Origin: Flavobacterium psychroterrae
GTDB taxonomy: Bacteria > Bacteroidota > Bacteroidia > Flavobacteriales > Flavobacteriaceae
DNA: 64,000 nt
NCBI RefSeq assembly: GCF_018380615.1
Contig: NZ_JAGYVZ010000011.1
Location: 1-64,000, forward strand
Reading direction: 5' to 3'
The notes below the pieces were generated by a model, which saw only the letters and a program-made list of their open reading frames with translations, made no database searches and was not told the DNA's origin. Shown piece after piece: positions 36,833 through 62,558 of the stretch (its first letter is position 1; the number at the start of each line of letters is the position of its first letter). A program made the translations under genes and the position numbers.

Positions 36833-38227
36833 TTAGTTAAGTATGGTTTCTATAGCTTTCCAAATTCTTTCTGAAACATTCTGCGGCGGATGCTGATTAA
36901 TTATCTCAAACCATTTTTGGGCATTTGCAATAGTTTCAGATTGCTGAACTAAACCAAGTTTGATTTTATCCTTTATATCCTGAGGTGAATTCAACCACAA
37001 AACAGCATTTTTATTGGGCATGGAACGAAAATGAACATATTTGTAAATTTTTGAAACTGACCAGTTTTTATCTATTTTATTTTGAACATCATAATTTATA
37101 AATGCACAAGCTTTTTGATGCGCAACATAATCAAATACCATTGATGATCCTAAATTTAGTACCATTTCAGTATGTTTAATTGTATTCATTTGTAATTCAA
37201 GATCTTCTTTTGTTGGCAAAATAGTATCCCAGTCTTCTCCAACTTTTTGCCATAAAGGTGCAATTGGTTTGATTATATCTTTATTTTTTTCAAGAACTTG
37301 ATCATATCTATTAGAGAAATCTACGGGACAGCGTCTAAAAATAATTCCTAACGAATTTCCTTCATTATTCAATTCCCTAACCGCATCTGCAACATCAGAT
37401 AAATATTGTGGATCATCTGGACAAGTTGTAAAATCATCGCCGGAATAACAAACATATTTTTTGTTTGAATCAAGCTGATGTTTTTCGAAAAATTCATCCT
37501 TTGAAACTATTTTGGTCGTATCAAAATGACTTTCGAATTGTGGTGTTCCGGTAATAAAAATCTGAGTTCCTTTTATATTTGGATAATAATGTAGTAATTC
37601 ATTTTTCATGTGTTCGCTCCAGACAAAATAAAAATCAGTCTCAACGACCATTGTTGCTTTTGGCAAATTATCCCATGAAAAAATAAAAGTCGCTGTTGGG
37701 ATTCCAAGTTTTTGTGCTGCTAATAAAGGCGCAATTGCCAAAACCGGACGCTGATTTGTACAAAAAACCATATCAGGTTTTTCTGTTTTCAAGGTTGCTA
37801 AACAATGTTTGTAATAGTCGCCTTTTTGTTCTAAACTTTTAATTTTTTGAGAAATCTTCTCCAAACCTTTATTTGAAGAATGTGTCGCGATTAAAAACTG
37901 AGAGATTAAATTTTTTACGGCTGGTTTTAATTTTTTATATAAAAAAGGAAAACGATATGTATCATAAACCAAATCTTTCTCAGCCTGAATACTTAAATTA
38001 AGTTCAATGTGTTTTCGAGCGTTTTTGTAACTATCCGTTAAAAGATTTGTTTTTGCATTCCTGATATTTATAGCATCAAAACCTAAAGTCGTTAAATCAA
38101 AAGGAGTATTATTCCAATATATGATTTGAAAATTTTGCTTTAATCCGAATTGGAAAAAATTAGAAAAAGCAAAATTCCTAAGTCCTACTCCATCTGGCAA
38201 TAAAATGAATATTTTTTTATTTTGCAT
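36833..38227 (-). CDS. GT-B-like glycosyltransferase (UDP-glycosyltransferase type)
   Basis: A 464-aa soluble protein. The N-terminal half begins IFILLPDGVGLRNFAFSNFF and contains DMVFCTNQRPVLAIAPLL; the C-terminal half has QIFITGTPQFESHFD, YVCYSGDDFTTCPDDP and LNLGSSMVFDYVA, which resembles the donor lobe of GT-B enzymes of the glycosyltransferase/2-epimerase superfamily. It directly overlaps neuC by one base, so it may add the nonulosonate or its neighbour. The exact family is not recognised, and donor specificity is open. Confidence 0.72.
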   Translation of the reverse strand: MQNKKIFILLPDGVGLRNFAFSNFFQFGLKQNFQIIYWNNTPFDLTTLGFDAINIRNAKTNLLTDSYKNARKHIELNLSIQAEKDLVYDTYRFPFLYKKLKPAVKNLISQFLIATHSSNKGLEKISQKIKSLEQKGDYYKHCLATLKTEKPDMVFCTNQRPVLAIAPLLAAQKLGIPTATFIFSWDNLPKATMVVETDFYFVWSEHMKNELLHYYPNIKGTQIFITGTPQFESHFDTTKIVSKDEFFEKHQLDSNKKYVCYSGDDFTTCPDDPQYLSDVADAVRELNNEGNSLGIIFRRCPVDFSNRYDQVLEKNKDIIKPIAPLWQKVGEDWDTILPTKEDLELQMNTIKHTEMVLNLGSSMVFDYVAHQKACAFINYDVQNKIDKNWSVSKIYKYVHFRSMPNKNAVLWLNSPQDIKDKIKLGLVQQSETIANAQKWFEIINQHPPQNVSERIWKAIETILN

Positions 38228-39348
38228 TAACTGTCTCTAAATTGTTTTTGATGATTGAGGTGCCAAATATCCGATTTTTGAAGAGACTGAAGAAATAATT
38301 CATTACTATTTCCTTCACCAAAATCGGCGATTGATCCCTGAACCTGATGCGTATCAATTATCGATAATGCTTCTTTTATACCATTCGATGAATAATCTGT
38401 GTTGATGATATCTGCATGAACTGCTCTGTTTTGCTGTCTTGTTCCAATGTTTATAATTGGAATTCCATAATAGGGAGCTTCTCTTATTCCTGCACTGCTA
38501 TTGCCTATTATAAATTGACTATTTTTTAATAAAGTCAGAAAATATTCAAATCTAAGCGATGGAAAAATTCTGAATCTTGAATTTTCTTTTAGCTTTTTGT
38601 ATGCATCAAGTATAAATTGACTTCCTAAATCATTATTCGGAAAAATTACAATGTAATTATGAGAGTCGTTTAATAATGACTCAACAAATGTTTCTGCATA
38701 TTCTTTCATCTTTGAAAATTCGGTTGTAACCGGATGAAACATTACGATTGCAAAATCATCAAATGGAATTTTATAATATTCTTTGGCAGTTTGTAAATCC
38801 GGTAATTGATCTGAAAACATGATGTCAATATCCGGTGAACCTATTGTAAAAACAGATTCTTCGATTTCGCCCATTTGAATCAATCGTTTTGCTGCCTGCT
38901 TATTTGAAACAAAATGAATATGGCTTAATTTACTCACGCTATGGCGAATTAATTCATCAACAGTTCCGGAGATTTCTCCTCCTTCTATATGTGATACCAA
39001 AATATTATTTAGTGAACCTACAATAGCTCCTGCAAGTGTTTCTACACGATCCCCATGCACAACTATCATATCCGGATTGATCGTTTTACAATAATTTGAT
39101 AATCCTTCGATGGTTTTTGCCAGGGTTAAATCCATTGTGGTTTCGTGCGTGTGATTTTCGAATGTAAAAACATTTTTAAAATTACATCGCTCAATTTCTA
39201 TCAACGTATAACCATAAACTTCTTGTAAATGCATGCCGGTTACAAAAACAAAGACTTCAAAATCATCTTGTTTTTCCAGCGTTTGTATTAATGATTTTAT
39301 TTTGCCAAAATCAGCGCGTGTACCGGTAAGAAATAGAATTTTTTTCAT
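38227..39348 (-). CDS. neuC: UDP-GlcNAc 2-epimerase, hydrolysing (NeuC/LegG type)
   Basis: The enzyme hydrolyses and epimerises a UDP-HexNAc to a free ManNAc-type sugar for nonulosonate synthesis. LTGTRADFGKIKSLI, VVHGDRVETLAGAI, SHIEGGEISGTVDE, IRHSVSKLSHIHFVS and IIGNSSAGIREAPYYGIP are the diagnostic NeuC segments. At 373 aa it is full length. neuB follows in the same direction 10 nt upstream. Whether it uses UDP-GlcNAc (sialic acid) or a 2,4-diacetamido sugar (legionaminic acid) cannot be told from these motifs. Confidence 0.9.
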   Translation of the reverse strand: MKKILFLTGTRADFGKIKSLIQTLEKQDDFEVFVFVTGMHLQEVYGYTLIEIERCNFKNVFTFENHTHETTMDLTLAKTIEGLSNYCKTINPDMIVVHGDRVETLAGAIVGSLNNILVSHIEGGEISGTVDELIRHSVSKLSHIHFVSNKQAAKRLIQMGEIEESVFTIGSPDIDIMFSDQLPDLQTAKEYYKIPFDDFAIVMFHPVTTEFSKMKEYAETFVESLLNDSHNYIVIFPNNDLGSQFILDAYKKLKENSRFRIFPSLRFEYFLTLLKNSQFIIGNSSAGIREAPYYGIPIINIGTRQQNRAVHADIINTDYSSNGIKEALSIIDTHQVQGSIADFGEGNSNELFLQSLQKSDIWHLNHQKQFRDS

Positions 39349-39358
39349 TTAAATTGAT

Positions 39359-40399
39359 TTATTCAAAATCAGAAAAATCTAATTGTTCATCGTTTCCAAT
39401 GTTTCTTGTTGCCGTTTTTCCAATTAAATCATTAAAATGTTCTGCTAAAATTTTTCCTGTTCCAGGACGTTTCACCCAGATATTTTCTTTAGATAAAACC
39501 TCTCCTTTTTTTATTGGAGCGATAGCGCAAACTGTAGCAAATGCAAAATCAATTGTTACTTGTTCTTCTAAAGCCGGTTTTTTAGTTCCACCTCTCATTA
39601 AAGCTATTTCTGCAGATGAAACGATTAATTTCTGACATGCTTTTTCATCCATACTGCAAATAATGTCAGGGCCAGTTCGCTGCATATGATCTGTAAAATG
39701 TCTTTCTAAAATACTTGCGCCTAATGCAACGGCTCCTAAACAAGCATTATTATTTAAAGTATGATCGCTTAAACCAAAAACTTTATCGAGAAAAGCTTCG
39801 TGCAATTCTACCATTGCACCAAAGCGCACTAAATGAATGGGCGTAGGATATAAATTCGTAGTATGCAAAAGTGCCACCGGAATATTATGTTTGTCAAAAA
39901 TAGCAACTGCTTTTTGAACGCTTTCGATTGTATTCATACCTGTGCTTAAAATAACCGGTTTGCCAAAAGAAGCAATATGTTCTAATAACGGGTAATTATT
40001 GCATTCGCCGGAACCAATTTTATAGGCGGGAATATCAAATTTCTTTAAACGTTCTGCCGCAGCTCTTGAAAACGGAGTAGAAATAAAGATCATGCCTTTA
40101 CTTTCAACATAGTTTTTAAGTTCTAATTCATCGGCTTCATTCAATGAACAGCGTTCCATGATTTCATAAATAGAAACATCGGCATTGCCGGGAATTACTT
40201 TTTTAGCAGCGCCACTCATTTCATCTTCTACAATATGGGTTTGATGTTTTACAACCTCAACACCTGCGCGATACGCTGCATCAACCATTTCTTTTGCAAC
40301 TTCTAAAGAGCCTTCGTGATTAATTCCTATTTCGGCTATTACTAAAGGTGGAAAATCCTGCCCGATTTTTCTTCCTGCTATTTCTATAAATGGATTCAT
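39359..40399 (-). CDS. neuB: N-acetylneuraminate / legionaminate synthase
   Basis: It condenses the ManNAc-type sugar with PEP. The TIM-barrel starts [20 protein letters not shown], with [41 protein letters not shown] and GLSDHT typical of NeuB. The C-terminal SAF antifreeze-like domain (about 285-346) carries [18 protein letters not shown]. The 346-aa length and order beside neuC and neuA define the pathway. Confidence 0.93.
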
Positions 40400-40414: not shown

Positions 40415-41086
40415 TTAAGGTTTTATGTGTTTATTGTATAAATATTGGGCGTAATCAAAGTCTTCTTGTGTATCAATATCAATATTGGCAAAAATATGAT
40501 CTGTTTCAAAAGGAAATGCATCTTCAGCAATAATTATATCGTTCATAATTAATGCTGCTTTTGTGATGTATAGTAATCCGTTTTCATAAAAAAGGGGTTC
40601 TAAATCCTGACTTCTCTGACCAATTTTGTAATTGTATGGAATAAATTTTTTGTCTGTTATCTTTCCGAATTTTTTGTGATTTCCTGAAACAGTAAACAAA
40701 CTATTAAAATTTTGTTTTTGATAGATGCCCAATGTTTCTTTTAATAAATTTTCAGGACGAAACGGGTTGGTTGCCTGCAGCAAAATAACATTTGCAACAT
40801 TTGCATGATCAATATTTTGCAAAACATGTTTTAAGGCGGAAACTGTTGGTTCAAAATCACCCGAAAGATTTTCAGGTCTGTCAATAACTTTTGCACCATA
40901 TTGCAATGCTATTTTTTTTATTTCCTGATCGTCTGTTGAAACATAAACTTCATCTATAATTTCGCTATTTGCCTGTGCATACAATATACTAAATGCCAGT
41001 AATGGAAAACCATCTATTAATTTTATGTTTTTTTCCGGCAGTCTTTTAGATCCGCCACGAGCTGGAATTATAGCAATATTTTTCAT
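40415..41086 (-). CDS. neuA: CMP-nonulosonate cytidylyltransferase
   Basis: It activates the nonulosonate to its CMP form. The nucleotide loop IIPARGGSKRLPEKNIK, VYVSTDDQEI, LLQATNPFRP and the terminal EDAFPFETDHIFANIDIDTQEDF all match the acylneuraminate cytidylyltransferase family. At 223 aa it is the short, monofunctional form. It lies 15 nt upstream of neuB. Confidence 0.93.
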   Translation of the reverse strand: MKNIAIIPARGGSKRLPEKNIKLIDGFPLLAFSILYAQANSEIIDEVYVSTDDQEIKKIALQYGAKVIDRPENLSGDFEPTVSALKHVLQNIDHANVANVILLQATNPFRPENLLKETLGIYQKQNFNSLFTVSGNHKKFGKITDKKFIPYNYKIGQRSQDLEPLFYENGLLYITKAALIMNDIIIAEDAFPFETDHIFANIDIDTQEDFDYAQYLYNKHIKP

Positions 41087-41096
41087 TCAAATAAAA

Positions 41097-42023
41097 TTAA
41101 GAAATGATGGTTTCTTCTGGCTGCCAATAAATTTTAGTATTTTCAAGTTCTTGAAATTCCGAAAATTCCTGATCTGAAAATCTGTTTTTATTTTTAATGA
41201 TTTTAGGCATGGAAACAATTAAATTAAACCCTGCAAAAACCAGTGCTTTAAGCGCTTTAAAATCACCTTTAAAAACTTTTAGTTTTAGCTGCATCCAAAC
41301 AGAATAGAGCATTTTTTTTGGAATTAATTTTACTGGTAAAAATAAAAAATACAAATACCATCCAGCTCTTAATGATCTTTGTAATCTAATACTATAATCG
41401 GTATTTTTTTTCCTTGCTTTAATATTCACTCTGTGATTTACTAAAACTTTGGGAAAATAATGAACTTCCAGATTTTTTTTAAATAATTGCATTGAAGCAA
41501 AATCTTCTTCTCCATAAAACTCAAACCATTCCGGATAATTAGGAATATCTTTCCATGCGCTCATTCTCCAGACATGTCCGCAACCTACAAATCCTTTTAC
41601 TCTTTGTGTTTTTTCTGTAGATGTAAATTCAGCTGGTCCTTCTAATCCCCAAAAAATGCGAAGCGCTATTAAACCGCAATTTTTATTTGTATCAAAATGA
41701 TTCTGAATAAGCTGTAATGGATTTCGAGTAATAAAATGTGCATCATCATCTAATGAAATGGCAAAGTTTGCCTTTGTTTCATTAAGCATTTTATTCCGAC
41801 AGTAAAGATATCCTTTTGATACTTCATTACGATAAATTTTAACTCGGGGAAAATCTTTTTTTATTCTTTCAAAAGTTCCATCAGTAGATCCGTCATCAAT
41901 AATAACGCATTCAACATCTTTGGCTTCTAATAAATAATTTATTTTAGACAATGTAACAGCCAAATCTTCTTTACGATTTTTTGTGGCTATTAAAATTGAA
42001 AAAGTCATTTGATTTAAGCTCAT
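41097..42023 (-). CDS. Glycosyltransferase family 2
   Basis: GT-A enzyme: FSILIATKNRKEDLAVTLSK, VIIDDGSTDGTFERIKK and the SLDDDAHF metal motif. WFEFYGEEDFASMQL provides the ED motif, and MSAWKDIPNYPEW precedes it. A C-terminal amphipathic segment could contact the membrane. It ends 10 nt before neuA and starts at the previous GT2 stop. Donor unknown. Confidence 0.9.
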   Translation of the reverse strand: MSLNQMTFSILIATKNRKEDLAVTLSKINYLLEAKDVECVIIDDGSTDGTFERIKKDFPRVKIYRNEVSKGYLYCRNKMLNETKANFAISLDDDAHFITRNPLQLIQNHFDTNKNCGLIALRIFWGLEGPAEFTSTEKTQRVKGFVGCGHVWRMSAWKDIPNYPEWFEFYGEEDFASMQLFKKNLEVHYFPKVLVNHRVNIKARKKNTDYSIRLQRSLRAGWYLYFLFLPVKLIPKKMLYSVWMQLKLKVFKGDFKALKALVFAGFNLIVSMPKIIKNKNRFSDQEFSEFQELENTKIYWQPEETIIS

Positions 42024-43034
42024 TTAATATTTTTTTACCATTTGTTTTGGTAATTTTTTCCACTTCATAAAACTTCTTGAAACCCAATTTACAGCGATTA
42101 ATTTGGTAAAAAGTTTATTCCTAACAAAATAACTGATACCACTTACATTTTTACGTTTTATAAAATTCAGGTTTGAATAATTAACGGCTGGTATTTTATT
42201 TGGTATCTTTTGCATCCAGTCTTCATAAATATTACCCATATGAAATGCGTAATTATCATAAGTTGTCAGCCTCCAATATCCTTTTTTTAAAGGTTTATTA
42301 TCAATATAATCTTCGCCAATTCCAGCTGCTTTTTTACCTCCTATGAAAGAGAGTAATTCTTCAAAAACATCTTTTTTATAAGTGGCAACAAAATGTCCTG
42401 AACCTACAAAACATTTCACATCTCCATAATTTAAACCTAATGCAAATTTTAAATAGTCCTGATTATAATTTCGGTCCCATCCTATACTATCATAAAAATG
42501 AATCATGGCTTGCTGATTTTTTACAGGAAGAAATTTTAAATCTTTATTGAAAAAATTATCAAAAATAACATTTCCACAATATCTTTTAAACATATTAAAT
42601 TGCGGAACAATCCCGACAACTCCGGCTTTTGGAATTGTAGAAAAAACTTTTATTGTCTCGGTTTGCCAATCCGAAAGAAACATAACATCTGCATCTGTAA
42701 CAGTTACAAGTTCTATATTGTTTCCTGAAAGCCCTTTAAAAACAGCATTAATTTTCCCGATGTTATCCGTATGAATTAATTCTTTTATTTTTTTTTGTTC
42801 AAAAAGATCATTAAGGTATTCTACCACATTGCTACAACTGCCATTATTGACAATCGTAATAAAAGTTCTGTCATGAATTGTATTGAATAAAGAATCCAGA
42901 CATATTTTTAATATTTTCAGTCCATCTAAAAAATATCCTTCTTCATTAGGTATGTAAACAGGAACTATTATTTGATGTATAAAGAAGGATTGTTCTTGAC
43001 TAATTTCTTTATTAGGATTGTTACCTATTCTCAT
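42024..43034 (-). CDS. Glycosyltransferase family 2-like (GT-A)
   Basis: Residues 20-110 form a GT-A fold with HQIIVPVYIPNEEGYFLDGL, VNNGSC and the metal motif VTDADVMFLSDW. GSGHFVATYKKDVFEELLSF and GIGEDYIDNKPL follow as acceptor-side elements. It is 336 aa and adjacent to the next GT2 (zero spacing). The family is less canonical than its neighbours, so I give GT-A/GT2-like only. Confidence 0.83.
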   Translation of the reverse strand: MRIGNNPNKEISQEQSFFIHQIIVPVYIPNEEGYFLDGLKILKICLDSLFNTIHDRTFITIVNNGSCSNVVEYLNDLFEQKKIKELIHTDNIGKINAVFKGLSGNNIELVTVTDADVMFLSDWQTETIKVFSTIPKAGVVGIVPQFNMFKRYCGNVIFDNFFNKDLKFLPVKNQQAMIHFYDSIGWDRNYNQDYLKFALGLNYGDVKCFVGSGHFVATYKKDVFEELLSFIGGKKAAGIGEDYIDNKPLKKGYWRLTTYDNYAFHMGNIYEDWMQKIPNKIPAVNYSNLNFIKRKNVSGISYFVRNKLFTKLIAVNWVSRSFMKWKKLPKQMVKKY

Positions 43035-43069: not shown

Positions 43070-43996
43070 TTAAATGCTGAAAAAATTATTTTCCTTCAGC
43101 TTTTTATATAATTCCTCTTTTGATACGGATACATTATGGCTTGAAAATTCATCAAAACTCACATTTGAATTTTCATAAATGTTTTTATAATGCATCATAT
43201 ATAAATTTAGTTTTTCATCCAGGTAAGTTCTTGGAGTTTCTTCTTTAGCGATCATAATTTCATGTATTTTTTCTGAAATTCTTGGTACTCCTAATGAAAA
43301 TTTCAGTCCAAATTCTTCTTTATAAATTTCAAAAAGATCTAAAACCCGAAAGCTTGGAATATTTGGGATAATATTAAATCCTGTAAATTGAAATGAATTG
43401 TGTATTAATCCAACTGCTTCTTCAACATCGATCATGAAACGGGTCATTTCCGGCGAATATAATTTTAGCTCGTATTTATTTTTAATAGAATCTAATATTA
43501 ACGGTATAATACTTCCGGTTGAATTTAATACGTTACCGTAAATTGCTGTAGTAAGATTAACATTTGATTTTTCGGCATCTACTATAAAAGATTCTCCGCC
43601 AATAAACTTCATTGCTCCGTATAATGTTGTTGCTGCCCTGCTTTTATCCGAAGAGATAAAACATGCGGCTTTAAAATCATTTTCTTCGGCAACATTGCGA
43701 GAATTAATTGCTCCGTTAACAATGGTTCTAAGTGCTACTTCAACATTTTGATCAACGGCTTCAATTTGTTTTAAGGATGCTGCAAAAATACCGTGATCAT
43801 GATTTTTAGCAGCTTTATTCATTAACTTAAAATCTGAGACATCGCCAATTACACAGTTAATTTTTGGGAATTGTTTCTTTAAATAATAATGTTTAGCCTC
43901 GTCTCTGCTATAAATTGTTATTTCGGCTTTGTCATAAAAACTTTTTACTATTTCTCTTCCAAGATAACCAGCTCCACCCGTGATAAATAATCTCAT
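43070..43996 (-). CDS. CapE/PseB-like UDP-HexNAc 4,6-dehydratase
   Basis: An extended SDR with FITGGAGYLGREIV, TIYSRDEAKHYY, GDVSDF, AASLKQIEAVDQN, the SSDK and YGAMKF catalytic segments, and MTRFMIDVEEAVGLI. This order of motifs matches CapE/PseB/FlaA1-type inverting UDP-GlcNAc dehydratases, though it is divergent (for example SRAATTLYGAMK replaces the usual PINxxGxSK). It overlaps the upstream CapF-like gene by 4 nt, matching the CapE-CapF partnership in UDP-L-FucNAc synthesis, but CapG is not seen. Confidence 0.75.
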   Translation of the reverse strand: MRLFITGGAGYLGREIVKSFYDKAEITIYSRDEAKHYYLKKQFPKINCVIGDVSDFKLMNKAAKNHDHGIFAASLKQIEAVDQNVEVALRTIVNGAINSRNVAEENDFKAACFISSDKSRAATTLYGAMKFIGGESFIVDAEKSNVNLTTAIYGNVLNSTGSIIPLILDSIKNKYELKLYSPEMTRFMIDVEEAVGLIHNSFQFTGFNIIPNIPSFRVLDLFEIYKEEFGLKFSLGVPRISEKIHEIMIAKEETPRTYLDEKLNLYMMHYKNIYENSNVSFDEFSSHNVSVSKEELYKKLKENNFFSI

Positions 43997-44694
43997 ATTT
44001 TATAATTAATATAGCTCAAATAAGTTTGATACAAATCTAATTCAAATTTTGTCTTCAATTCCGGAAATTTATGACTTTGGTTAATTTCATGAAAATGTTG
44101 TAAAAGTCTGTAAATTTCATCAACTGAAGTTTCCTGATACAAAATTTCGCTTTGTTTTAGATTTCCAATGATTGGCAATACATCATTAATACTAACTAGG
44201 TTTACTTTGTTTTTATTAAATTCTATTGGCAAATCATTATGCAGATTATAGCAAAATGTTGCTACAAAAGATGTTTTGTTGGGAACTGCATAAATTCCAA
44301 AAGAATTAGGAAGTTTAAAGGATATAAACGCTGTACCAACGGAGATACAATACTCATTTAATGCAATTTTTGCTTCTTTTTTAGATTGTCCGTATGGATT
44401 ATCTAAATCCTCTTGTAAGGATGACAAAAAAGCAATATTACATTTAAGATCATTATCTGTTAAACATTTTATTGTGTCGCTGGTAAGTTTTCTATTTAAT
44501 GCGGTTAAAGTATCGGGATCTTTATGTCGTTGAATAAAAGCACCATGAATAAGCCAATCTAATTCTTTCACTTTTGAAAGCTGACCTAGATAATCTCTTC
44601 CAAGTTCAATCACTTCATATTTAAGAATATTTCTAAAATACTGGGTTAGATGTATCCCTATAAAACCTTTTTCTCCTGTAATTGCTATCTTCAT
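43993..44694 (-). CDS. CapF-like UDP-sugar reductase lacking cupin domain
   Basis: A 233-aa SDR whose motif order follows CapF/WbjC: ITGEKGFIGIHL, DWLIHGAFIQRHKDPDT, LSSLQEDLDNPYGQSKKEA (YxxxK), FKLPNSFGIYAVPN, SFVATFCYNLHNDLPI and LVSINDVLPII. CapF proteins (about 370 aa) continue after the LYQTYLSYI segment with a C-terminal cupin that epimerises C3; here the protein stops exactly there. It should therefore act as reductase only, if active. The stop overlaps the CapE-like start by 4 nt. Confidence 0.75.
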   Translation of the reverse strand: MKIAITGEKGFIGIHLTQYFRNILKYEVIELGRDYLGQLSKVKELDWLIHGAFIQRHKDPDTLTALNRKLTSDTIKCLTDNDLKCNIAFLSSLQEDLDNPYGQSKKEAKIALNEYCISVGTAFISFKLPNSFGIYAVPNKTSFVATFCYNLHNDLPIEFNKNKVNLVSINDVLPIIGNLKQSEILYQETSVDEIYRLLQHFHEINQSHKFPELKTKFELDLYQTYLSYINYKI

Positions 44695-50012: not shown

Positions 50013-51044
50013 CTACTTTTTATTTTTTTTATAAAAGATAGATTTTATTACAAATTTACCTGTCTTTTTTAAGCCTACTTTTTTAAAAAAAAGAGGAAAT
50101 ATAATCAAAATCTGACAAACATTTGTAAAAGAGTATACGTCATCCCTTTCTTGATAAAGTTTGTACAACCTTTTCTTTTCATTATTTATAAATTGCAAAA
50201 ACATTCTATGTTCGTAAATACCCTTTTTACCATTTATTAAAATTAGAGAATCCAATAAATTTACTTTTCTCTTTAGTTTTTTCAGAATAAACTCCAAATT
50301 TAATCCCTGTTTTTGTATATCAAAAAAATAAAGTTCTTTATCTAATTGTGGAATTACTTTTTGTAGCATTGTAATTCTAACTTGATGTGCAACTTTAATT
50401 TGCTTTTCATTTCTAATCCTTGAAACTTGTTGATTATGAACTCTATAATAAAGCAAAACTTGCCCTATATTTGCAGTTTTTTCCAAAAAAACCAAACGTG
50501 ACCATAATTCATAATCTTCTGCAGGCTCCATCTCAGAATCATATGCAAGCTTATGCTCATCAAATTTAGCCTTTACAAACATAATTGTAGGATGTGCAAT
50601 ATAACATCCTGAAATTAGCTTTACTTTAATTTCATCATGTATTAACGGATGATCGCAAACTTTTTTTTCTCCAATTACCTGATATAATGTCCCACATAAA
50701 ACTACATCAAGATTTGTATCTAAAAAATCTACTTGTTTTGCAAAACGTTCCGGTAAACTTATATCATCACCATCCATCCTAGCAATATATTCTCCTTTAG
50801 CAATAGTCAATCCATGATTTAAACTATTAGTGTAACCTGAATTTTGAGGTTTTTGTATTAATTGTATTCTTGGATCATCATATGCCTTTATAATTGATAC
50901 TGTTGCGTCTGATGAAGCATCGTCAATTATTATAAACTCAAAATCTGAAAAGGTTTGATTTAAAATACTGTCTACTGCTTCTTTTATATAAAGTTCGCAA
51001 TTGTAGACAGGCATTAAAACTGTTATTTTAGGAATGGAAGACAT
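50013..51044 (-). CDS. Glycosyltransferase family 2
   Basis: A canonical GT2: ITVLMPVYNCELYIKEAVDS, EFIIIDDASSDATVSIIKA, SGYTNSLNHGLTIAKGEYIA and the RMDGDDISLPERF metal motif. MEPAEDYELWSRLVFLEK provides the ED element. C-terminal region is basic and hydrophobic. It overlaps the gmd stop by one base, linking it to the GDP-sugar set. Confidence 0.91.
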   Translation of the reverse strand: MSSIPKITVLMPVYNCELYIKEAVDSILNQTFSDFEFIIIDDASSDATVSIIKAYDDPRIQLIQKPQNSGYTNSLNHGLTIAKGEYIARMDGDDISLPERFAKQVDFLDTNLDVVLCGTLYQVIGEKKVCDHPLIHDEIKVKLISGCYIAHPTIMFVKAKFDEHKLAYDSEMEPAEDYELWSRLVFLEKTANIGQVLLYYRVHNQQVSRIRNEKQIKVAHQVRITMLQKVIPQLDKELYFFDIQKQGLNLEFILKKLKRKVNLLDSLILINGKKGIYEHRMFLQFINNEKKRLYKLYQERDDVYSFTNVCQILIIFPLFFKKVGLKKTGKFVIKSIFYKKNKK

Positions 51045-52117
51045 TATTTTTTTTCGTTTTCAAATAATTCTACGTCTGCTGCAACCATTTGTTTTACTAT
51101 ATCAGCTAAATCAAATTTGGGTTTCCATCCTAAAACTGTTCTTGCTTTAGTAGAATCTCCTATTAATAAATCAACCTCTGTGGGTCTGTAATATGTTGGG
51201 TCAACTTTTACAACTTCTTTTCCTATTTCAATTTGATATTCAGGATTAGAACAACATTTAATTTTTGCAATTTCATTTTCATTTTCTCCCACAAAATCTA
51301 GTTCAATACCACACTCTAAAAATGCCATTCGAACAAATTCTCTAACATGAGTTGTTTTACCAGTAGAAATTACAAAATCTTCCGGATTATCTTGTTGCAA
51401 GATTAACCACATTGCTTCAATATAATCTTTTGCATGTCCCCAATCTCTCTGAGAATTTAAATTTCCTATGTATAAAACATCTTGTAAACCTAACGCTATT
51501 TTGGCAACAGCCATTGTGATTTTTCGGGTAACAAATGTTTCTCCTCTTAAAGGTGACTCATGATTAAATAAAATTCCGTTACAGGCAAACATATTATATG
51601 CTTCGCGGTAATTTACTGTGATCCAATAGGCATAAATTTTTGCTACGCCATATGGTGAACGGGGATAAAATGGTGTTTTTTCGTTTTGCGGTACTTCCTG
51701 CACTAAACCATAAAGCTCTGAAGTTGATGCCTGATAAATTCTTGTTTTTTCTGCAAGACCTAAAATTCTTACGGCTTCTAATAATCTCATTGCGCCCAAA
51801 CCATCAACATTTGCAACATATTCAGGGGTATCAAAACTTACTTTGACATGTGACATCGCTCCTAAATTATATATCTCGTCCGGCTGTACTTCTTGTATAA
51901 TCCTTATTAAATTTGTGGCATCTGACAAATCTCCGTAATGAAGAATGAATCTTACATTATCTTCATGAAGATCTCTAAATAAATGATCGATACGTTGTGT
52001 ATTGAATGATGATGCTCTTCTTTTTATACCGTGTACTTCGTAACCTTTCTCTAATAAGAATTCTGCTAAATAAGCACCATCTTGTCCAGTCACTCCAGTT
52101 ATTAATGCCTTTTTCAT
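51044..52117 (-). CDS. gmd: GDP-mannose 4,6-dehydratase
   Basis: It converts GDP-D-mannose to GDP-4-keto-6-deoxy-D-mannose, the branch point to GDP-fucose, GDP-colitose and related sugars. [64 protein letters not shown] (catalytic), [14 protein letters not shown] (YxxxK) and [15 protein letters not shown] are all typical. Full length at 357 aa. It lies 3 nt downstream of the GT11 gene, after ColD- and Fcl-like genes. Confidence 0.95.
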
Positions 52118-52120
52118 TTT

Positions 52121-52939
52121 TTATATTTTAACCCAATTTGTCGGGATTATATCAGTAGTATTTATCGAATCGTCGTTAAACCAAAGTTTTGGAGCAACAA
52201 CAATTTTATCGGGATTTTTATTAAGCCATGCGCCCCACCAACTAAAGCTGCTGTTTGCAATAATATTATGTTTACAGGAAGACATTAACTTTAAGTCCTC
52301 AAAATTCGTTAAAGCATCATTAAAATCAATGTAAACTGTTTCTCTATTGGTCGAAAAATTCAATTTCACCCAATCAATATCATCAGAAAAAACAAAAAAA
52401 ACGGGATCTTTGACTTTACTTTCGATAATTTCTAAGGCCTCTTTATAATATTCTTCTTTGCTTGTATTGTGTAAAGGATTGTTTAAATAATCTCCTCTTC
52501 GAATATGAATTGAAACAGAATTTACTAATTCAATTTTTCTAATGGTGTCTTCAGTTATTTTTTTTAATGGGGTAAGTAATTCAAAATCATTTCGGACTTC
52601 TTCCTGATACTTTAAAAAATATTTTTCGGATTGAAAATATCCTTCTAAAAATATATTTCCTTTTAATGTGGCTATATTTGGATTATATCCAAAATCAACT
52701 TCTTTATAGAAATTATTTTTTTTATAGAAACTCTTTATTTTTCTTAAATATTTATTTTCCTGTTTATAAACTTTAGAAATAATATTAAAATGATGCAATG
52801 CATAATTATGCAGTTGATAAGTTTTAAATTGCGACACATCAATAAATAGCTGCTGCTTTGTTTCTATAGCCAAAGATCTAGCTACAGCATATTGAAATAA
52901 CTGATTTCCTAAACCTCCAATTAACTGTACTACAATCAT
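52121..52939 (-). CDS. GT11 alpha-1,2-fucosyl/colitosyltransferase
   Basis: A 272-aa GT11 enzyme: VVQLIGGLGNQLFQYAVARS at the start and the GDP-binding SIHIRRGDYLNN (HxRRxDY). ANSSFSWWGAWLNKNPDK is the C-terminal donor motif. The family uses GDP-L-fucose, and at least one relative from E. coli O55 (WbgN) is known to transfer colitose instead. Because the neighbours look like a colitose set rather than a simple fucose set, colitose is a serious candidate donor here. The start is adjacent to the ColD-like stop (zero spacing). Confidence 0.88.
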   Translation of the reverse strand: MIVVQLIGGLGNQLFQYAVARSLAIETKQQLFIDVSQFKTYQLHNYALHHFNIISKVYKQENKYLRKIKSFYKKNNFYKEVDFGYNPNIATLKGNIFLEGYFQSEKYFLKYQEEVRNDFELLTPLKKITEDTIRKIELVNSVSIHIRRGDYLNNPLHNTSKEEYYKEALEIIESKVKDPVFFVFSDDIDWVKLNFSTNRETVYIDFNDALTNFEDLKLMSSCKHNIIANSSFSWWGAWLNKNPDKIVVAPKLWFNDDSINTTDIIPTNWVKI

Positions 52940-54115
52940 CTATTTTTTTAGTAAATTTTCGATAAGTACTAAATCTTCTTCAAGAAGTTCAGGATAATTT
53001 CCGCAATAAAAACCATTTGCATGCATCATATCTGCTCCGGGCATTTCATATAATTCTGTTACATACTTTTTATAAAAAGGCTGTTCCTGCATATTTCCGG
53101 CTATCATAGGTCTAATTTCTACTCCTGCATTAATAAACTTATCTAAGTAATGTTTTCTTAATTCCGGAGTTTGGCATACGAATGGAAAAGCAAATGTTGA
53201 CAATCTGTTAATATGATCGTGTTTAAGATGTACAAAATCCGAATTATCTTTTAGAACATTTTCTATTCTTAAATAATTTTGTTCTCGTTTACTGATATTT
53301 TCTTCTAAAAATTGCATTTGATATTGACCTAGAAAACCAGTAATTTCTGTAGGTCTAAAATTATAACCTAAATCATAAAAGGTGTATTTTGCCTGAAATT
53401 CAGATTCAATCCCAAATTTTGATCTCCATTTTTGCTGTTGTTCAGCATCCAGATTTCTATCCCAGCCGTTTGCTCTTACAATTCTAAGCATTTCGGCAAA
53501 ATCATCATCACTGGTGCAAACCATTCCTCCTTCGATTGTCGACATATGATGTGCAACAAAAAAAGAAAAACTTCCTCCTATTCCAAAATTTCCTGTAACT
53601 CCATCAGGTAATTCAGTTCCTAATGATTCACAATTATCTTCAATTAGAATAATATTTTTTTTATTACAAATTTGTTTTATAACATCAATATCTCCTGTAA
53701 AACCTAAAATATTTGTTATAAATAGCGCCTGTAAATCTGTAGTTTTTAATCTTTCAATAAGATGGTAAGACATAGTATTTAATGTGTCCGGCTCGCAATC
53801 AAGTGCTACGGGAACCATGCCTAACTGAATAATAGGCATTGTATTAGTCGACCATGTTAATGCTGAAAATGCTACTTTATCACCATCTTTTAGTTTTCCT
53901 AAATTTTTTAATGCCTGTAGCATTGCCAAATTTGCGCTCCCTCCGCTATTAAATAATACAGCATGCTTGCATTTTTGATACTGAGCAAATTTGTTTTCAA
54001 ATTTTTCACACTCAATGTCCATACTTAATCTATCTGCATTAAGAATAAAATCAGCCAAGGCTTTTTTTGTTTCTTCTTCTTTAAGAAATGCTTTTCGCAT
54101 TAAGGGTATTTTCAT
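52940..54115 (-). CDS. colD: ColD-like GDP-4-keto-6-deoxymannose 3-dehydratase
   Basis: A 391-aa member of the DegT/DnrJ/EryC1/StrS fold. SALTWSTNTMPIIQLG, NILGFTGDID and IEDNCESLGTEL form the PLP pocket, but the PLP lysine is replaced: SFFVAHHMSTIEGGMV has His189 where aminotransferases have Lys. This substitution marks the 3-dehydratases (ColD and the CDP-sugar E1). Located beside gmd and an Fcl/ColC-like gene, it should remove O3 of GDP-4-keto-6-deoxymannose. A classic aminotransferase role is excluded by the lost lysine. The exact substrate is inferred from context. Confidence 0.82.
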   Translation of the reverse strand: MKIPLMRKAFLKEEETKKALADFILNADRLSMDIECEKFENKFAQYQKCKHAVLFNSGGSANLAMLQALKNLGKLKDGDKVAFSALTWSTNTMPIIQLGMVPVALDCEPDTLNTMSYHLIERLKTTDLQALFITNILGFTGDIDVIKQICNKKNIILIEDNCESLGTELPDGVTGNFGIGGSFSFFVAHHMSTIEGGMVCTSDDDFAEMLRIVRANGWDRNLDAEQQQKWRSKFGIESEFQAKYTFYDLGYNFRPTEITGFLGQYQMQFLEENISKREQNYLRIENVLKDNSDFVHLKHDHINRLSTFAFPFVCQTPELRKHYLDKFINAGVEIRPMIAGNMQEQPFYKKYVTELYEMPGADMMHANGFYCGNYPELLEEDLVLIENLLKK

Positions 54116-55062
54116 TACTGCTTATTTTTATAACTTTTTATTACCTCTTCAATTCCTGTTTCTAATGCTTTATTTGGTTTAAATCCTTCATTTAGCATAT
54201 TTGATACGTCCATGCATTTTTTGAGCATACCATTGGGTTTAGTTTCATCCCACGAAATTTCGCCTGAATATTCTACCTTAGACAAAATCAACTCGGCTAA
54301 TTCTTTTATACTAATATCAGTTCCCGGACCAACATTAATAAAATCCGGAGAATTATAATTTTCAAAAAAATATAAAATTGCTTTAGAAAAATCTTCTACG
54401 TGCAAAAATTCTCTTCTGGCAATTCCTGTTCCCCATAAAGTCAGGGATGCTGCATTCTCATTTTTAGCATCTACAAATCTTTTAACTAATGATGACAAAA
54501 CATGCGCATGATTGAGATCAAAAGTATCATTAGGTCCATATAAATTACTAGGAATTAAACTAATTCCGTTAAAACCATATTGTTTATTATAGCTTTCTAA
54601 TAATTTAATTCCTGTAATTTTTGCAATCGCATATCCTTCGTTTGTTGGCTCCGGTTTTCCGTCTAAAAGATATTCCTCTTTCATAGGTTGTGGCGAAGCT
54701 GCGGGATATATGCAGGAACTTGCAATAAATACAAACTTTTTTACACCATGCTTATACGAAGAATTTATGATATTAGATTGCATCATCAGGTTATCATACA
54801 AAAAAATTGCAGGATTATCAATATTTGCTTTAATACCACCAACTTTTGCAGCAATATGAATTACATATTCTGGTTTTTCTCTATTAAAAAAATCATCAAC
54901 TTCTTGCTGATTGATTAAATCTAAGGTTTTATGAGTAGTAGTTAAGATATTAGAATAACCATTTTCTTTAAAAAAATTCAAAGTTATACTGCCTAACATT
55001 CCTGTATGACCTGTAATATATATTTTGGCGTTTTTATTTATATTCTTTCCCAATTCTCCCAT
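54115..55062 (-). CDS. GDP-L-fucose synthase-like / ColC-type epimerase-reductase
   Basis: An extended SDR with ITGHTGMLGSITLNFF, AAKVGGI, IASSCIYP (catalytic Ser/Cys) and YAIAKITGIKLLESY (YxxxK), plus LIPSNLYGPNDTFD, as in Fcl/WcaG. In fucose synthesis it 3,5-epimerises and reduces the Gmd product; ColC does the related step on the 3-deoxy sugar. With a ColD-like gene immediately downstream, the product is likely GDP-L-colitose, though GDP-L-fucose cannot be excluded. ATG at 55062 overlaps the FkbM gene by 25 nt; no later ATG is plausible. Confidence 0.83.
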   Translation of the reverse strand: MGELGKNINKNAKIYITGHTGMLGSITLNFFKENGYSNILTTTHKTLDLINQQEVDDFFNREKPEYVIHIAAKVGGIKANIDNPAIFLYDNLMMQSNIINSSYKHGVKKFVFIASSCIYPAASPQPMKEEYLLDGKPEPTNEGYAIAKITGIKLLESYNKQYGFNGISLIPSNLYGPNDTFDLNHAHVLSSLVKRFVDAKNENAASLTLWGTGIARREFLHVEDFSKAILYFFENYNSPDFINVGPGTDISIKELAELILSKVEYSGEISWDETKPNGMLKKCMDVSNMLNEGFKPNKALETGIEEVIKSYKNKQ

Positions 55063-58158: not shown

Positions 58159-60126
58159 CTACTTATCTAAAATTTCAAAAGTAGAATTCATACTTTTAAA
58201 TTCCGGGACAATTTTTTTCATTTTAGTTACAATATCATCATTTTCATAGAAATCAGCGATACCAATAAGCTCATCAATTTCGATGTGCAAATTTTCATAT
58301 TCATCCTGGATTTCCTGAGCGATCATGATTTTATTATGATGGGTCGGCAACGTTTTAGAAGTATCATTTAATAATTCTTCGTATAATTTTTCACCTGGTC
58401 TTAATCCAACAATTTTTATTTTTATCTCCTTATCAGGAATAAACCCTGCTAACTTAATCATTTTTTTGGCAAGGTCAATTATTTTTACTGGCTTACCCAT
58501 ATCAAAAATATAAATTTCCCCTCCATTACCCATTGCACCAGCTTCAAGAACTAACTGACAAGCCTCAGGAATGGTCATAAAATAACGAATAATATCCTGA
58601 TGCGTTATAGTAACAGGTCCTCCTTCGGCAATTTGCTTAGTGAACAAAGGAACAACAGAACCGTTAGAACCTAAAACATTTCCAAAACGGGTTGTAATAA
58701 ATTTTGTAGCGCCTTCAATATTTGCTCTCTGATTTTTCAAAAATAAAGATTGTACATATTTCTCTGCAATTCGTTTGCTGGCTCCCATTACATTACTAGG
58801 ATTAACCGCTTTATCAGTAGATACCATAACAAATTTTTTGACATGATACTTACAAGATAAGTCAGCTAAATTTTTAGTGCCTTTAATATTTGTCTGAATT
58901 GCTTGCGATGGATTTTCTTCCATCAAAGGGACGTGTTTATAAGCCGCCGCATGAAAGACAACATGTGGACTGTAATTTTTAAAAACTTTCTCTAATGCTT
59001 TTTTACTTCTTACATCTGCAATAACAGCTACAATTTTTGATTCTGAATTTAAAGTTAAAGTCTCTAAACACAAATTATGAAGAGGTGTTTCGGCATGGTC
59101 TAGTATAATCACCATTTTAGGATTAAATCCTAAAACCTGCCTTACTATTTCGCTTCCTATTGATCCGGCTGCACCGGTAATAAGAATTGTTTTATCTTTT
59201 AATTGTTTTGAAATTGATTTACTGTCGAGAACAATAGGTTTTCTTTCTAATAAATCTTCAATTTGAATATTTTTTACTTTTTGAGAAATTTCTTTTTGAT
59301 TTTCCCAATCCGAGATCAAAGGAACCGTATATACTCTATAATTGAATTCTAAACATTGGTCAACAATGATCAATTGCTCTTCTTTAGATAAACTTTTATC
59401 AGCTATAATAACACCTTCTGCTGCTACAGAACGCATTAAAGCCGGCAATTTTTTTCGCAAAATCAAAATTGGCAAATCTAACATTCGTTTAGACGCATTT
59501 TGATTATTTTTATCTACAAACCCAACAATTTTAAATCGGGAAGGAGTTTCAAATTTCAATGCATTTGCCACAGAAATTGCATTAGCATCTGTTCCGTAAA
59601 TTACGGTTCTGATTAACTTAGAATTCGTTTTTTCTGAAAAATATAATTCGAAAGTTTGTTTTACTACAACGCGATACAAAAACAAACCGCAAAACGATAA
59701 AACTAAATTAATAAAAAGTGCTGTATTTAAAAATGCTTTATGCCCGGTATATAATTCAAAAACTAAATTGAAAAATAGAAAAAATACTAAAACCGACATT
59801 TGAGAAAATAACAGTTTTATAGCATCAATATAAGATGAGTGGCGAATAATTCCTGAATAAGTTCTGAAAAGCCAAAAGAAAAATACATTTATAATGATTA
59901 AACTTGAAACAAAATAAAACTGATGTGACGTAATTATATAACCTAGTGCTGTTCCTTCAAACAACATATAAGTAAATGTGAATGAAAAAATCAGAACCAT
60001 TACATCTATCGCAATAATGATCCACCTAGGCAAATAGCTAAGGTTATTAATACTGCTTCTTAGATTCCTTGGAGAGAAAAAATTATGCAACAAAGAGACT
60101 ATTTTAGTTTGTTTATCTGTATCCAA
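58159..60126 (-). CDS. Membrane UDP-HexNAc 4,6-dehydratase (PglF/WbpM-like)
   Basis: Four N-terminal TM segments (about 30-150) and a CoA-binding-like domain lead to a large SDR domain: KTILITGAAGSIGSEIVRQV, VIADVRSKKALEKV, HAAAYKHVPLMEENP, STDKAVNPSNVMGASKRIAEK, RFGNVLGSNGSVVPLF and GLRPGEKLYEELL. Such enzymes make UDP-4-keto-6-deoxy-GlcNAc. With the PglE-like aminotransferase at 62589 it fits a route to an amino-dideoxy sugar. The start is TTG at 60126, 39 nt after a TACTTTTG promoter; there is no upstream ATG. Length 655 aa. Confidence 0.9.
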   Translation of the reverse strand: MDTDKQTKIVSLLHNFFSPRNLRSSINNLSYLPRWIIIAIDVMVLIFSFTFTYMLFEGTALGYIITSHQFYFVSSLIIINVFFFWLFRTYSGIIRHSSYIDAIKLLFSQMSVLVFFLFFNLVFELYTGHKAFLNTALFINLVLSFCGLFLYRVVVKQTFELYFSEKTNSKLIRTVIYGTDANAISVANALKFETPSRFKIVGFVDKNNQNASKRMLDLPILILRKKLPALMRSVAAEGVIIADKSLSKEEQLIIVDQCLEFNYRVYTVPLISDWENQKEISQKVKNIQIEDLLERKPIVLDSKSISKQLKDKTILITGAAGSIGSEIVRQVLGFNPKMVIILDHAETPLHNLCLETLTLNSESKIVAVIADVRSKKALEKVFKNYSPHVVFHAAAYKHVPLMEENPSQAIQTNIKGTKNLADLSCKYHVKKFVMVSTDKAVNPSNVMGASKRIAEKYVQSLFLKNQRANIEGATKFITTRFGNVLGSNGSVVPLFTKQIAEGGPVTITHQDIIRYFMTIPEACQLVLEAGAMGNGGEIYIFDMGKPVKIIDLAKKMIKLAGFIPDKEIKIKIVGLRPGEKLYEELLNDTSKTLPTHHNKIMIAQEIQDEYENLHIEIDELIGIADFYENDDIVTKMKKIVPEFKSMNSTFEILDK

Positions 60127-61164: not shown

Positions 61165-62010
61165 TTATATAAACATTTTTTTCAAACTCTCTTTATAATT
61201 TGGAATATCCAAATTATATATAGTCTTTATTTTTTTTTTATCTAGTAACGAAAACTCAGGTCGCTTTGCAGGAGTTGGATATGATGCTGATGGTATTCCG
61301 CCAACATTGCAATTATACCCTCCTATTTCCTTTATACTCAACGCAAATTCATACCAACTTATTTCTCCTTCATTTGAATAATTGTAAATCCCCGGAATCC
61401 AACTGGATGATTCTAAAACACTAATCATTCCATGAGCTAAATCAGCAGCATAAGTTGGTGAACCAATTTGATCATTTACTACATTTATACTATCTTTTTC
61501 CTGCATCAGACGTTGCATAGTTTTAACGAAATTATTTCCAAATTTACTATATACCCAAGAAGTTCTTATGACAATTGAATTTGGATTTTCTTTCAAACAA
61601 GCGATTTCACCAGCTCTTTTACTGGCTCCATAAATATTTATTGGATTCGTTTCTTCATCTTCATTTAAAGCGATTGAAGATGATCCGTCAAAAACGTAGT
61701 CTGTAGATATATGAATTAATTTTGCATTATTCTTAAAAGTATACTTTGCAATTAATTCTACTGCCACATGATTTACTGTAAAAGCTAATTCTCTTTCATT
61801 TTCAGCTTTATCAACTGCTGTATATGCACCACAATTAAAAATTATATTTGGCTTAATATCTTCTAATTGACTTTGAAGTGTATCTAAATCATCTAATGTA
61901 ATTTTAGTTCTATCAGCAAAAATCCATTCATATTGTGGATAATTTGATGATAAAGTGGCAAGTTCAGATCCTAATTGTCCGTTTGCTCCTGTTACAAGAA
62001 TTCTTTCCAT
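61165..62010 (-). CDS. rfbD: dTDP-4-dehydrorhamnose reductase
   Basis: Final step to dTDP-L-rhamnose. LVTGANGQLGSELATL, NCGAYTAVDKAENE, HISTDYVFDG and NIYGASKRAGE (YxxxK) are standard. RTSWVYSKFGNNFVKTM and PTPAKRPEFSLLDK follow. 281 aa, one-base overlap with rfbC. Confidence 0.95.
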   Translation of the reverse strand: MERILVTGANGQLGSELATLSSNYPQYEWIFADRTKITLDDLDTLQSQLEDIKPNIIFNCGAYTAVDKAENERELAFTVNHVAVELIAKYTFKNNAKLIHISTDYVFDGSSSIALNEDEETNPINIYGASKRAGEIACLKENPNSIVIRTSWVYSKFGNNFVKTMQRLMQEKDSINVVNDQIGSPTYAADLAHGMISVLESSSWIPGIYNYSNEGEISWYEFALSIKEIGGYNCNVGGIPSASYPTPAKRPEFSLLDKKKIKTIYNLDIPNYKESLKKMFI

Positions 62011-62558
62011 TAAAATAAACTATTACAATTATCAATAAAAGGAAGTACTTGATCTTTTTCTGAAACAATTGCTTCTTTTAAATCCATTCCCCAGTCGATA
62101 TTAAGAGATGGATCATCAAATTTAATTCCTCCTTCAGCTTCTTTGTTATAAAACTGATCACATTTATACATCACAGAAGCGGTTTCACTAATAACCGAAA
62201 ACCCATGCGCAAATCCTTGCGGCACTAATAATTGTTTTTTATTTTCTGCTGATAATAAAACACTAAAGGATTTCCCGTAAGTAGGTGAATCTTTTCTTAA
62301 ATCAACTGCAACATCAATAATCTCACCTTCTAAAACACGTACCAATTTTGTCTGAGCAAAAGGAGGGTTTTGATAATGCAAACCTCTCAAAGTTCCTTTT
62401 TTAGAAAAAGATTGATTATCCTGAACGAAATCTATATTAATTCCTAAATCTTCAAATTTAGTTTTGCTGTATGATTCAAAAAAATAACCTCTTTCATCTC
62501 CAAAAACTGTAGGCTCGATAACTACTAAATCTTTTATAAATGTTTCTTCAATTTTCAT
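62010..62558 (-). CDS. rfbC: dTDP-4-dehydrorhamnose 3,5-epimerase
   Basis: RmlC cupin: EPTVFGDERGYFFESYSK, GTLRGLHYQNPPFAQTKLVR (catalytic His), DLRKDSPTYGKSF, VPQGFAHGFSV and the YKCDQFYNKEAEGGI loop. 182 aa, full length. It lies 30 nt after the aminotransferase gene. Confidence 0.95.
   Translation of the reverse strand: MKIEETFIKDLVVIEPTVFGDERGYFFESYSKTKFEDLGINIDFVQDNQSFSKKGTLRGLHYQNPPFAQTKLVRVLEGEIIDVAVDLRKDSPTYGKSFSVLLSAENKKQLLVPQGFAHGFSVISETASVMYKCDQFYNKEAEGGIKFDDPSLNIDWGMDLKEAIVSEKDQVLPFIDNCNSLF

Follow-up and report, generated by a model that had tools for sequence, protein, structure and literature searches.

Flavobacterium psychroterrae encodes a conserved cupin-less CapF homologue beside a divergent CapE: a possible two-enzyme route to surface sugars with an unepimerised C3

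The window, a stretch of 64,000 nucleotides from Flavobacterium psychroterrae (genome of 5.7 Mb in 113 contigs), lies inside a polysaccharide locus that is rich in glycosyltransferase genes and includes a pair of ABC transporter genes, mostly recognised by eye. The genes that matter here are the following:

38227..39348, minus strand: neuC-like hydrolysing UDP-GlcNAc 2-epimerase (TIGR03568, 411.4 bits, over the cut-off of 235.9)
39359..40399, minus strand: neuB-like nonulosonate synthase (TIGR03569, 398.8 bits, cut-off 399.65)
40415..41086, minus strand: neuA-like CMP-nonulosonate cytidylyltransferase (PF02348; PseF model 149.7 bits, under the cut-off of 205.7)
41097..42023, minus strand: GT2 glycosyltransferase of 308 aa (Pfam PF00535), with a homologue in 4 of 7 other loci
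42024..43034, minus strand: GT2 glycosyltransferase of 336 aa (Pfam PF00535)
43070..43996, minus strand: capE', 308-aa UDP-GlcNAc 4,6-dehydratase/5-epimerase-like SDR
43993..44694, minus strand: capF', 233-aa cupin-less SDR reductase domain of the CapF family

Read along the minus strand, capF' comes before capE', and its stop end overlaps capE' by 4 bases.

The closest relative of CapF' is the N-terminal SDR reductase domain of CapF, by profile, by sequence and by predicted fold. CapF' aligns with positions 1-243 of 372 of the CapF model NF047837 (E 7e-35, 120.6 bits), thus with its SDR part only, and its best PDB sequence match is Staphylococcus aureus CapF, 2zkl (residues 1-243 of 369, E 1.2e-25). 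It terminates at the LYxTYLSY segment, the boundary where the C-terminal Zn cupin of CapF, its C3-epimerase, starts. The original prediction, that this protein follows CapF and stops before the cupin, is therefore borne out, as is the placement of the SDR with CapF and not in an unrelated reductase family. The profile score is under the equivalog cut-off of 500 bits, but a full-length viral CapF (232.5 bits) misses it as well, so that the miss by CapF' alone says little. AlphaFold2, with 21 sequences, gives a complete and confident fold (mean pLDDT 94.6, pTM 0.89) whose top structural match is CapF (2zkl, Z 23.9, 2.6 A over 225 residues, 30% identity), followed by a second CapF structure (3st7, Z 23.6). 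Other sugar SDRs range from Z 21.4 downward, making the lead of CapF by fold alone modest; Foldseek likewise puts CapF first. The N-terminal SDR features of CapF (GxxGxxG; Ser/Tyr-xxx-Lys) are present, as the NADP motif G7xxG10xxG13 and the catalytic S91, Y101 and K105.

CapF' was found in eight distinct Flavobacterium genomes, that of the window included. A scan of species genomes gave six Flavobacterium loci (58-82% identity). The search of 398 genomes of the genus at 1e-40 gave matches in five: the genome of the window, three that agree with loci of the species scan (equated with them by identity and contig position) and a new one (G855, 52%). Among 397 genomes drawn from the family (1e-36), only the genome of the window matched; in these searches each genome had no more than its few top candidates scored, and misses are possible. 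Where the closest relatives have a named carrier, it is a Flavobacterium, and the nearest homologues outside the eight genomes lie on uncultivated-virus contigs. In all eight genomes the protein is 233 aa long and ends in NYK[ILM], and of seven pairwise comparisons with the window copy, six had a finite dS and gave a dN/dS of 0.05-0.31, the seventh being saturated. Judged from these sequences, the low dN/dS and the fixed length are signs of purifying selection, and CapF' is not a broken gene. The equal length in eight genomes together with the low dN/dS speaks against chance, an assembly artefact or a pseudogene.

The remaining homologues in the scans have frames of some 365-415 aa, which leaves room for a cupin. 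The exception is L020, a CapF frame interrupted by a stop, which was excluded from the full-length counts. The CapF cupin family, PF14667, was directly confirmed in both of the longer homologues scanned, L040 and L055. The full-length set amounts to 42 loci and 41 distinct sequences (37 bacterial, 4 viral), L055 and L092 being the same contig. CapF' matched 23 plasmid records, at best with 34% identity, and both records opened carry a full-length CapF; two Staphylococcus phage records matched at 30% among annotated phages. A viral scan with the alignment of short CapFs returned three full-length viral CapF contigs, all already in the set.

The cupin is lacking not only from CapF' but also from its surroundings. 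A profile made from the cupins of full-length CapFs had no match at E<=10 among window ORFs of at least 80 aa, which rules out a split-off cupin nearby, in agreement with what had been predicted. In the genome of the window, PF14667 had no match at E<=0.1. It was over its cut-off in none of the eight CapF' genomes: seven had no match at E<=0.1 and that of locus L035 had three sub-threshold ones (best 22.8 bits, cut-off 28.7), in searches whose controls matched in 6 of 14 genomes, 3 of these above the cut-off. CapG, the C2-epimerase, is present in 31 of the 37 bacterial full-length CapF loci, the other six having only about 1-1.5 kb of flank, and it is absent from all eight CapF' loci. Genome-wide, a CapG query (1e-20) recovered only homologues of 31-36% identity, in four of the eight CapF' genomes. 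No full-length CapF was found in the loci that correspond to the one in the window.

The alignment of the 8 short CapF' with the 41 distinct full-length CapFs shows that G7, G10, G13, S91, Y101 and K105 are common to both, G13 being Ala in one bacterial row. The PN-YN-S motif carries Tyr-Asn in all 41 full-length CapFs and Lys-Thr (K140-T141) in all eight short ones; Tyr-Asn as a criterion for CapF is a feature seen in this alignment, not a published one. By pairwise alignment, this pair corresponds to positions 142-143 of S. aureus CapF. Position 90 is Leu in the eight short proteins, Ser, Thr or Ala in the 37 bacterial full-length CapFs and Thr or Ile in the 4 viral ones. At position 51 the short proteins have Gly (7) or Ala (1), whereas the 37 bacterial full-length CapFs have Leu and the viral ones Cys (3) or Leu (1). 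By analogy with the family, the changed residues (51, 90, 140-141) would be expected near the sugar. CapF' thus resembles the SDR domain of CapF/WbjC/FnlB, the bifunctional C3-epimerase/C4-reductase of UDP-L-FucNAc synthesis, to which it is homologous over its full length, with the same cofactor and S/Y/K motifs and a position beside a CapE-type gene. It differs from these enzymes by the missing cupin, by Lys-Thr in place of Tyr-Asn, by a locus without CapG and by a clade of its own.

In the CapF tree, the eight short CapFs form one clade (support 100/100), which groups with viral full-length CapFs (89/54 and 86/94, moderate support) apart from the full-length CapFs of the genus; the tree has a midpoint root and carries a warning of long branches meeting. 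A recent truncation of one of the genus's own full-length CapFs finds no support in this tree, the short clade not being placed with those proteins. As for the direction of the domain change, we infer a loss of the cupin rather than a gain; the ancestor of CapF' would then be a CapF reductase domain that lost its cupin.

The neighbouring protein is a divergent CapE-like enzyme, as had been supposed: it scores 159.8 bits on the PseB model (cut-off 407.75) and 107.5 bits on that of FnlA (cut-off 730), and it is 28-31% identical to canonical CapE and PseB-like rows. By sequence it belongs to the family of CapE/WbjB/FnlA and PseB/FlaA1/Mg534, the C5-inverting UDP-GlcNAc 4,6-dehydratases, and the alignment shows that Asp117-Lys118, Tyr126 and Lys130 are kept as in FlaA1-type enzymes, which covers the Asp-Lys pair and the Tyr/Met position of FlaA1/CapE. 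Its best PDB relatives are Mg534 (4tqg, top), FlaA1 (2gn4), 4j2o and CapE at 111-101 bits, with 6bwc (77 bits) and WlaL (49 bits) lower. WlaL (PglF) retains C5. C5 inversion is reported for CapE, FlaA1 and Mg534 in the available parts of PMC3699295 and PMC9614988. The family placement, at a score under the PseB cut-off, suggests that CapE' inverts C5 too. The Asp-Lys pair was rejected as a single-residue test of this inversion because the long CapD-like protein of the window (58159-60126) also carries it.

Unlike the CapE and PseB types, CapE' falls in a clade whose members come mainly from contigs of uncultivated viruses. It is 94-97% identical to the copies of three other Flavobacterium genomes, 82-87% to those of three more and 55-70% to the copies in 52 viral-contig loci. 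In its own phylum it was recovered from 1 of 395 genomes drawn (1e-60; five candidates per genome scored), and annotated phages and plasmids gave no CapE' at 1e-40. A tree made by a quick method places the seven Flavobacterium CapE' as a clade (SH-aLRT 100) within an otherwise viral group. The 52 viral loci include many near-duplicates and reduce to 37 distinct viral CapE' rows (L056 included) and 27 distinct partner proteins. In 42 of the 52, a cupin-less SDR-like protein of about 240 aa lies within two genes of CapE'; in 3 (L066, L078, L092) the neighbour is a full-length CapF, and in 7 neither partner was seen, some of these loci being cut by the contig end. Outside full-length CapF, no cupin was found in the viral CapE' loci with the CapF-cupin profile or the RmlC and FdtA-like queries.

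The viral partner of about 240 aa is called SDR-like here from motifs read by eye, by which it looks RmlD-like. The partner of L059 had no PDB match at 0.01 and no NCBIfam or PHROG match, and Pfam Epimerase was found only under its cut-off. A simple pattern could read 23 of the 27 distinct partners, in which the residue after Thr-Asp is Cys in 15, Ser in 6 and Gly in 2; read by eye, this is presumably where GDP-fucose synthase has its Cys. The CapE-type dehydratase with a SDR-like protein of about 240 aa recurs as a viral cassette (L059-L110). On L069, the only contig checked for phage structural genes, tail-sheath and tail-tube genes lie downstream of CapE'.

A homologue of the 336-aa GT2 lies beside capF' or capE' in all eight loci (34-86% identity in the seven others) and is a candidate transferase for the new sugar. 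CapE' adjoins CapF' in seven of the eight loci, the exception being L037, whose genome lacks capE'. About 41 kb upstream, that genome has a PseB-like gene (36% identity to capE'), after which comes a gene for a DegT-type aminotransferase. NeuB and NeuC accompany CapF' in all eight loci, as versions of 30-34% identity in L037 and L139. In these two loci CapF' and the GT2 stayed beside the distant NeuB and NeuC, which looks like a replacement of the nonulosonate genes. A NeuA-like gene is present in seven of the eight loci, with none in the available stretch of L038. The genome of L037 (G584) also has several 3-ketoacyl-ACP-synthase-like and SDR-like genes in its polysaccharide region (L129:13743-16061 and L130:9942-12355), recognised from the first residues of the ORFs and perhaps for an acyl decoration.

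A 9-deoxy-nonulosonate (fusaminic-acid-like) made from the CapE'/CapF' sugar was considered but is less likely, NeuC being over its cut-off as an ordinary hydrolysing 2-epimerase. Since, in addition, no PseG-type hydrolase was recognised in the ORF lists read, synthesis of the Neu5Ac type is simpler. Elsewhere in the window (51044-55062, minus strand) lie Gmd (583 bits, over the cut-off), a ColD-like 3-dehydratase (its best PDB match is ColD/Wbdk, 2gms, and the His-His motif aligns) and a GDP-fucose-synthase-like gene. Beside them is a protein of 272 aa that we take to be a fucosyltransferase-like enzyme. From its sequence, this region looks like a GDP-colitose pathway.

The reading that we prefer, to which we give about an even chance, is that CapE' acts as a dehydratase/5-epimerase and CapF' then reduces C4 of a keto sugar whose C3 has not been epimerised. 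CapE' would convert UDP-GlcNAc into UDP-2-acetamido-2,6-dideoxy-L-arabino-hex-4-ulose by 4,6-dehydration and C5 inversion, and CapF' would reduce C4 of this product directly with NADPH, C3 not being inverted. With no CapG step, C2 would likewise be unchanged, and the product would be a UDP-2-acetamido-2,6-dideoxy-L-hexose with C2 and C3 of GlcNAc. The neighbouring GT2 would transfer this sugar to a surface polysaccharide, of which a nonulosonic acid would be another component. Both reactions, their stereochemistry and the use of the sugar are what we infer from the gene set.

The stereochemistry was derived by hand, assuming a CapE product with C2 and C3 of GlcNAc and an inverted C5. Reduction from the CapF face leads to L-talo only after C3 inversion and otherwise to L-ido, and reduction from the RmlD face without C3 inversion leads to L-altro. 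The product would thus be L-altro if the hydride came from the RmlD-type face and L-ido if the CapF face were kept, a choice that sequence cannot decide. L-FucNAc, L-RhaNAc and L-QuiNAc, which the original prediction gave as the sugars to look for by NMR, do not fit, since by the same derivation all three require C3 inversion; this is why L-altro or L-ido is predicted instead.

The division of labour in full-length CapF on which the prediction relied agrees with the accessible parts of PMC5393024 and PMC3699295: C3 is first epimerised by the cupin, after which the SDR uses NADPH to reduce C4. In S. aureus CapF, a cupin-bound inhibitor slows NADPH use and a CapE by-product accumulates (PMC5393024, in part). 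An ordinary CapF reductase domain may hence not accept the un-epimerised sugar, so that under the preferred reading CapF' would have had to change its specificity. The change of Tyr-Asn to Lys-Thr fits such an alteration, which it does not prove.

The original prediction had left two outcomes side by side: either the pathway ends in another 6-deoxy-HexNAc epimer, or a separate enzyme carries out the epimerisation. The former is favoured by the lack of any PF14667 match over the cut-off, by the missing CapG and by the motif change. The latter, in which C3 would be epimerised in trans by RmlC, a FdtA-like cupin or CapE' itself, so that CapF' makes the usual L-talo sugar, is unlikely. It keeps some weight because all seven CapF' genomes searched (all except G855) encode RmlC, which is a cupin epimerase too, and because CapE' could epimerise in principle. 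However, the window RmlC (62010-62558) comes after genes that by eye resemble RmlA and RmlD, and the known substrate of RmlC is dTDP-4-keto-6-deoxyglucose. The search for a stand-alone cupin also yielded, just outside the window and about 19 kb from capF', a FdtA-like protein of 141 aa (C17:63724-64146); it adjoins a DegT aminotransferase gene, and only four of the eight CapF' genomes carry such a cupin (G855 had no match, in a search without control), so that it was rejected as a general partner of CapF'. CapG, needed for L-FucNAc, is missing from the CapF' loci as well. FdtA-like cupins of about 140 aa do occur in 19 of the 37 bacterial full-length CapF loci (L011-L019, L021-L026, L028-L031), between CapE and CapF where coordinates were read, despite the cupin of CapF itself, and this speaks for epimerisation in trans.

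It is rather improbable that the SDR domain of CapF' performs both C3 epimerisation and C4 reduction itself, like Mg535 and GDP-L-fucose synthase. The Megavirus pair Mg534-Mg535, which makes UDP-L-RhaNAc, is the nearest parallel: Mg535 (270 aa, cupin-less, RmlD-like) has both activities and partners the CapE-like Mg534, and its reported epimerase residue is a cysteine, according to the available part of a review (PMC9614988). Mg534 (4tqg) is also the best PDB match of CapE'. CapF', by contrast, is CapF-like, and CapF is closer to it than any other SDR among the structural matches listed. The epimerase Cys, we assume, follows the catalytic Ser pair, as in SSC of the fucose-synthase homologue of the window (54115-55062); at this position, mapped by eye, all eight CapF' have Leu, Phe, Tyr or Ile. 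Use of another keto-sugar, such as one that belongs with the nonulosonate genes, with capE' adjacent only incidentally, is also quite unlikely. L037 could point to it, CapF', the GT2 and the nonulosonate genes remaining there without CapE', and so could NeuB and NeuC in all eight loci; yet CapE' is adjacent in the seven others, the L037 genome has its PseB-like dehydratase, and viral full-length CapF also adjoins CapE' (L066, L078, L092). As for a decaying or inactive remnant, the loss of a whole catalytic domain and the score under the CapF equivalog cut-off could suggest it, but the low dN/dS, the constant length and NYK[ILM] end in eight genomes, the intact S/Y/K and the confident complete fold make it highly improbable.

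Sugars of the predicted kind are rare. According to the available part of PMC9912281, the first isolation of 6-deoxy-L-AltNAc dates from 2017, its source being a Fusobacterium O-antigen, whereas no natural occurrence of 6-deoxy-idosamine had been reported by 2023. The O-antigen of F. nucleatum 25586, known as a structure, combines 6-deoxy-L-AltNAc, one of the two predicted sugars, with a nonulosonic acid, fusaminic acid (PMC13014188, in part). The literature searched, as far as its text was available, gave no description of the biosynthesis of L-altro or L-ido amino sugars, and for a cupin-less CapF a single paper, which describes the ordinary three-enzyme pathway.

In place of the usual surface sugar, the product of the capE'-capF' pair is probably one that is rare or has yet to be seen. 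More tentatively, at somewhat less than an even chance, it could be a minimal two-enzyme route to C3-unepimerised UDP-2-acetamido-2,6-dideoxy-L-hexoses, and the first genetic route to 6-deoxy-L-AltNAc or 6-deoxy-L-IdoNAc; under this reading the CapF cupin was lost once, in a lineage that viruses share. CapF is a clear case of two fused catalytic domains, and a natural, conserved reductase-only form tests the need for prior C3 inversion. The pair connects bacterial genes for a surface sugar with a clade of dehydratases mostly found on uncultivated-virus contigs, and it could explain the bacterial origin of L-altro or L-ido amino sugars.
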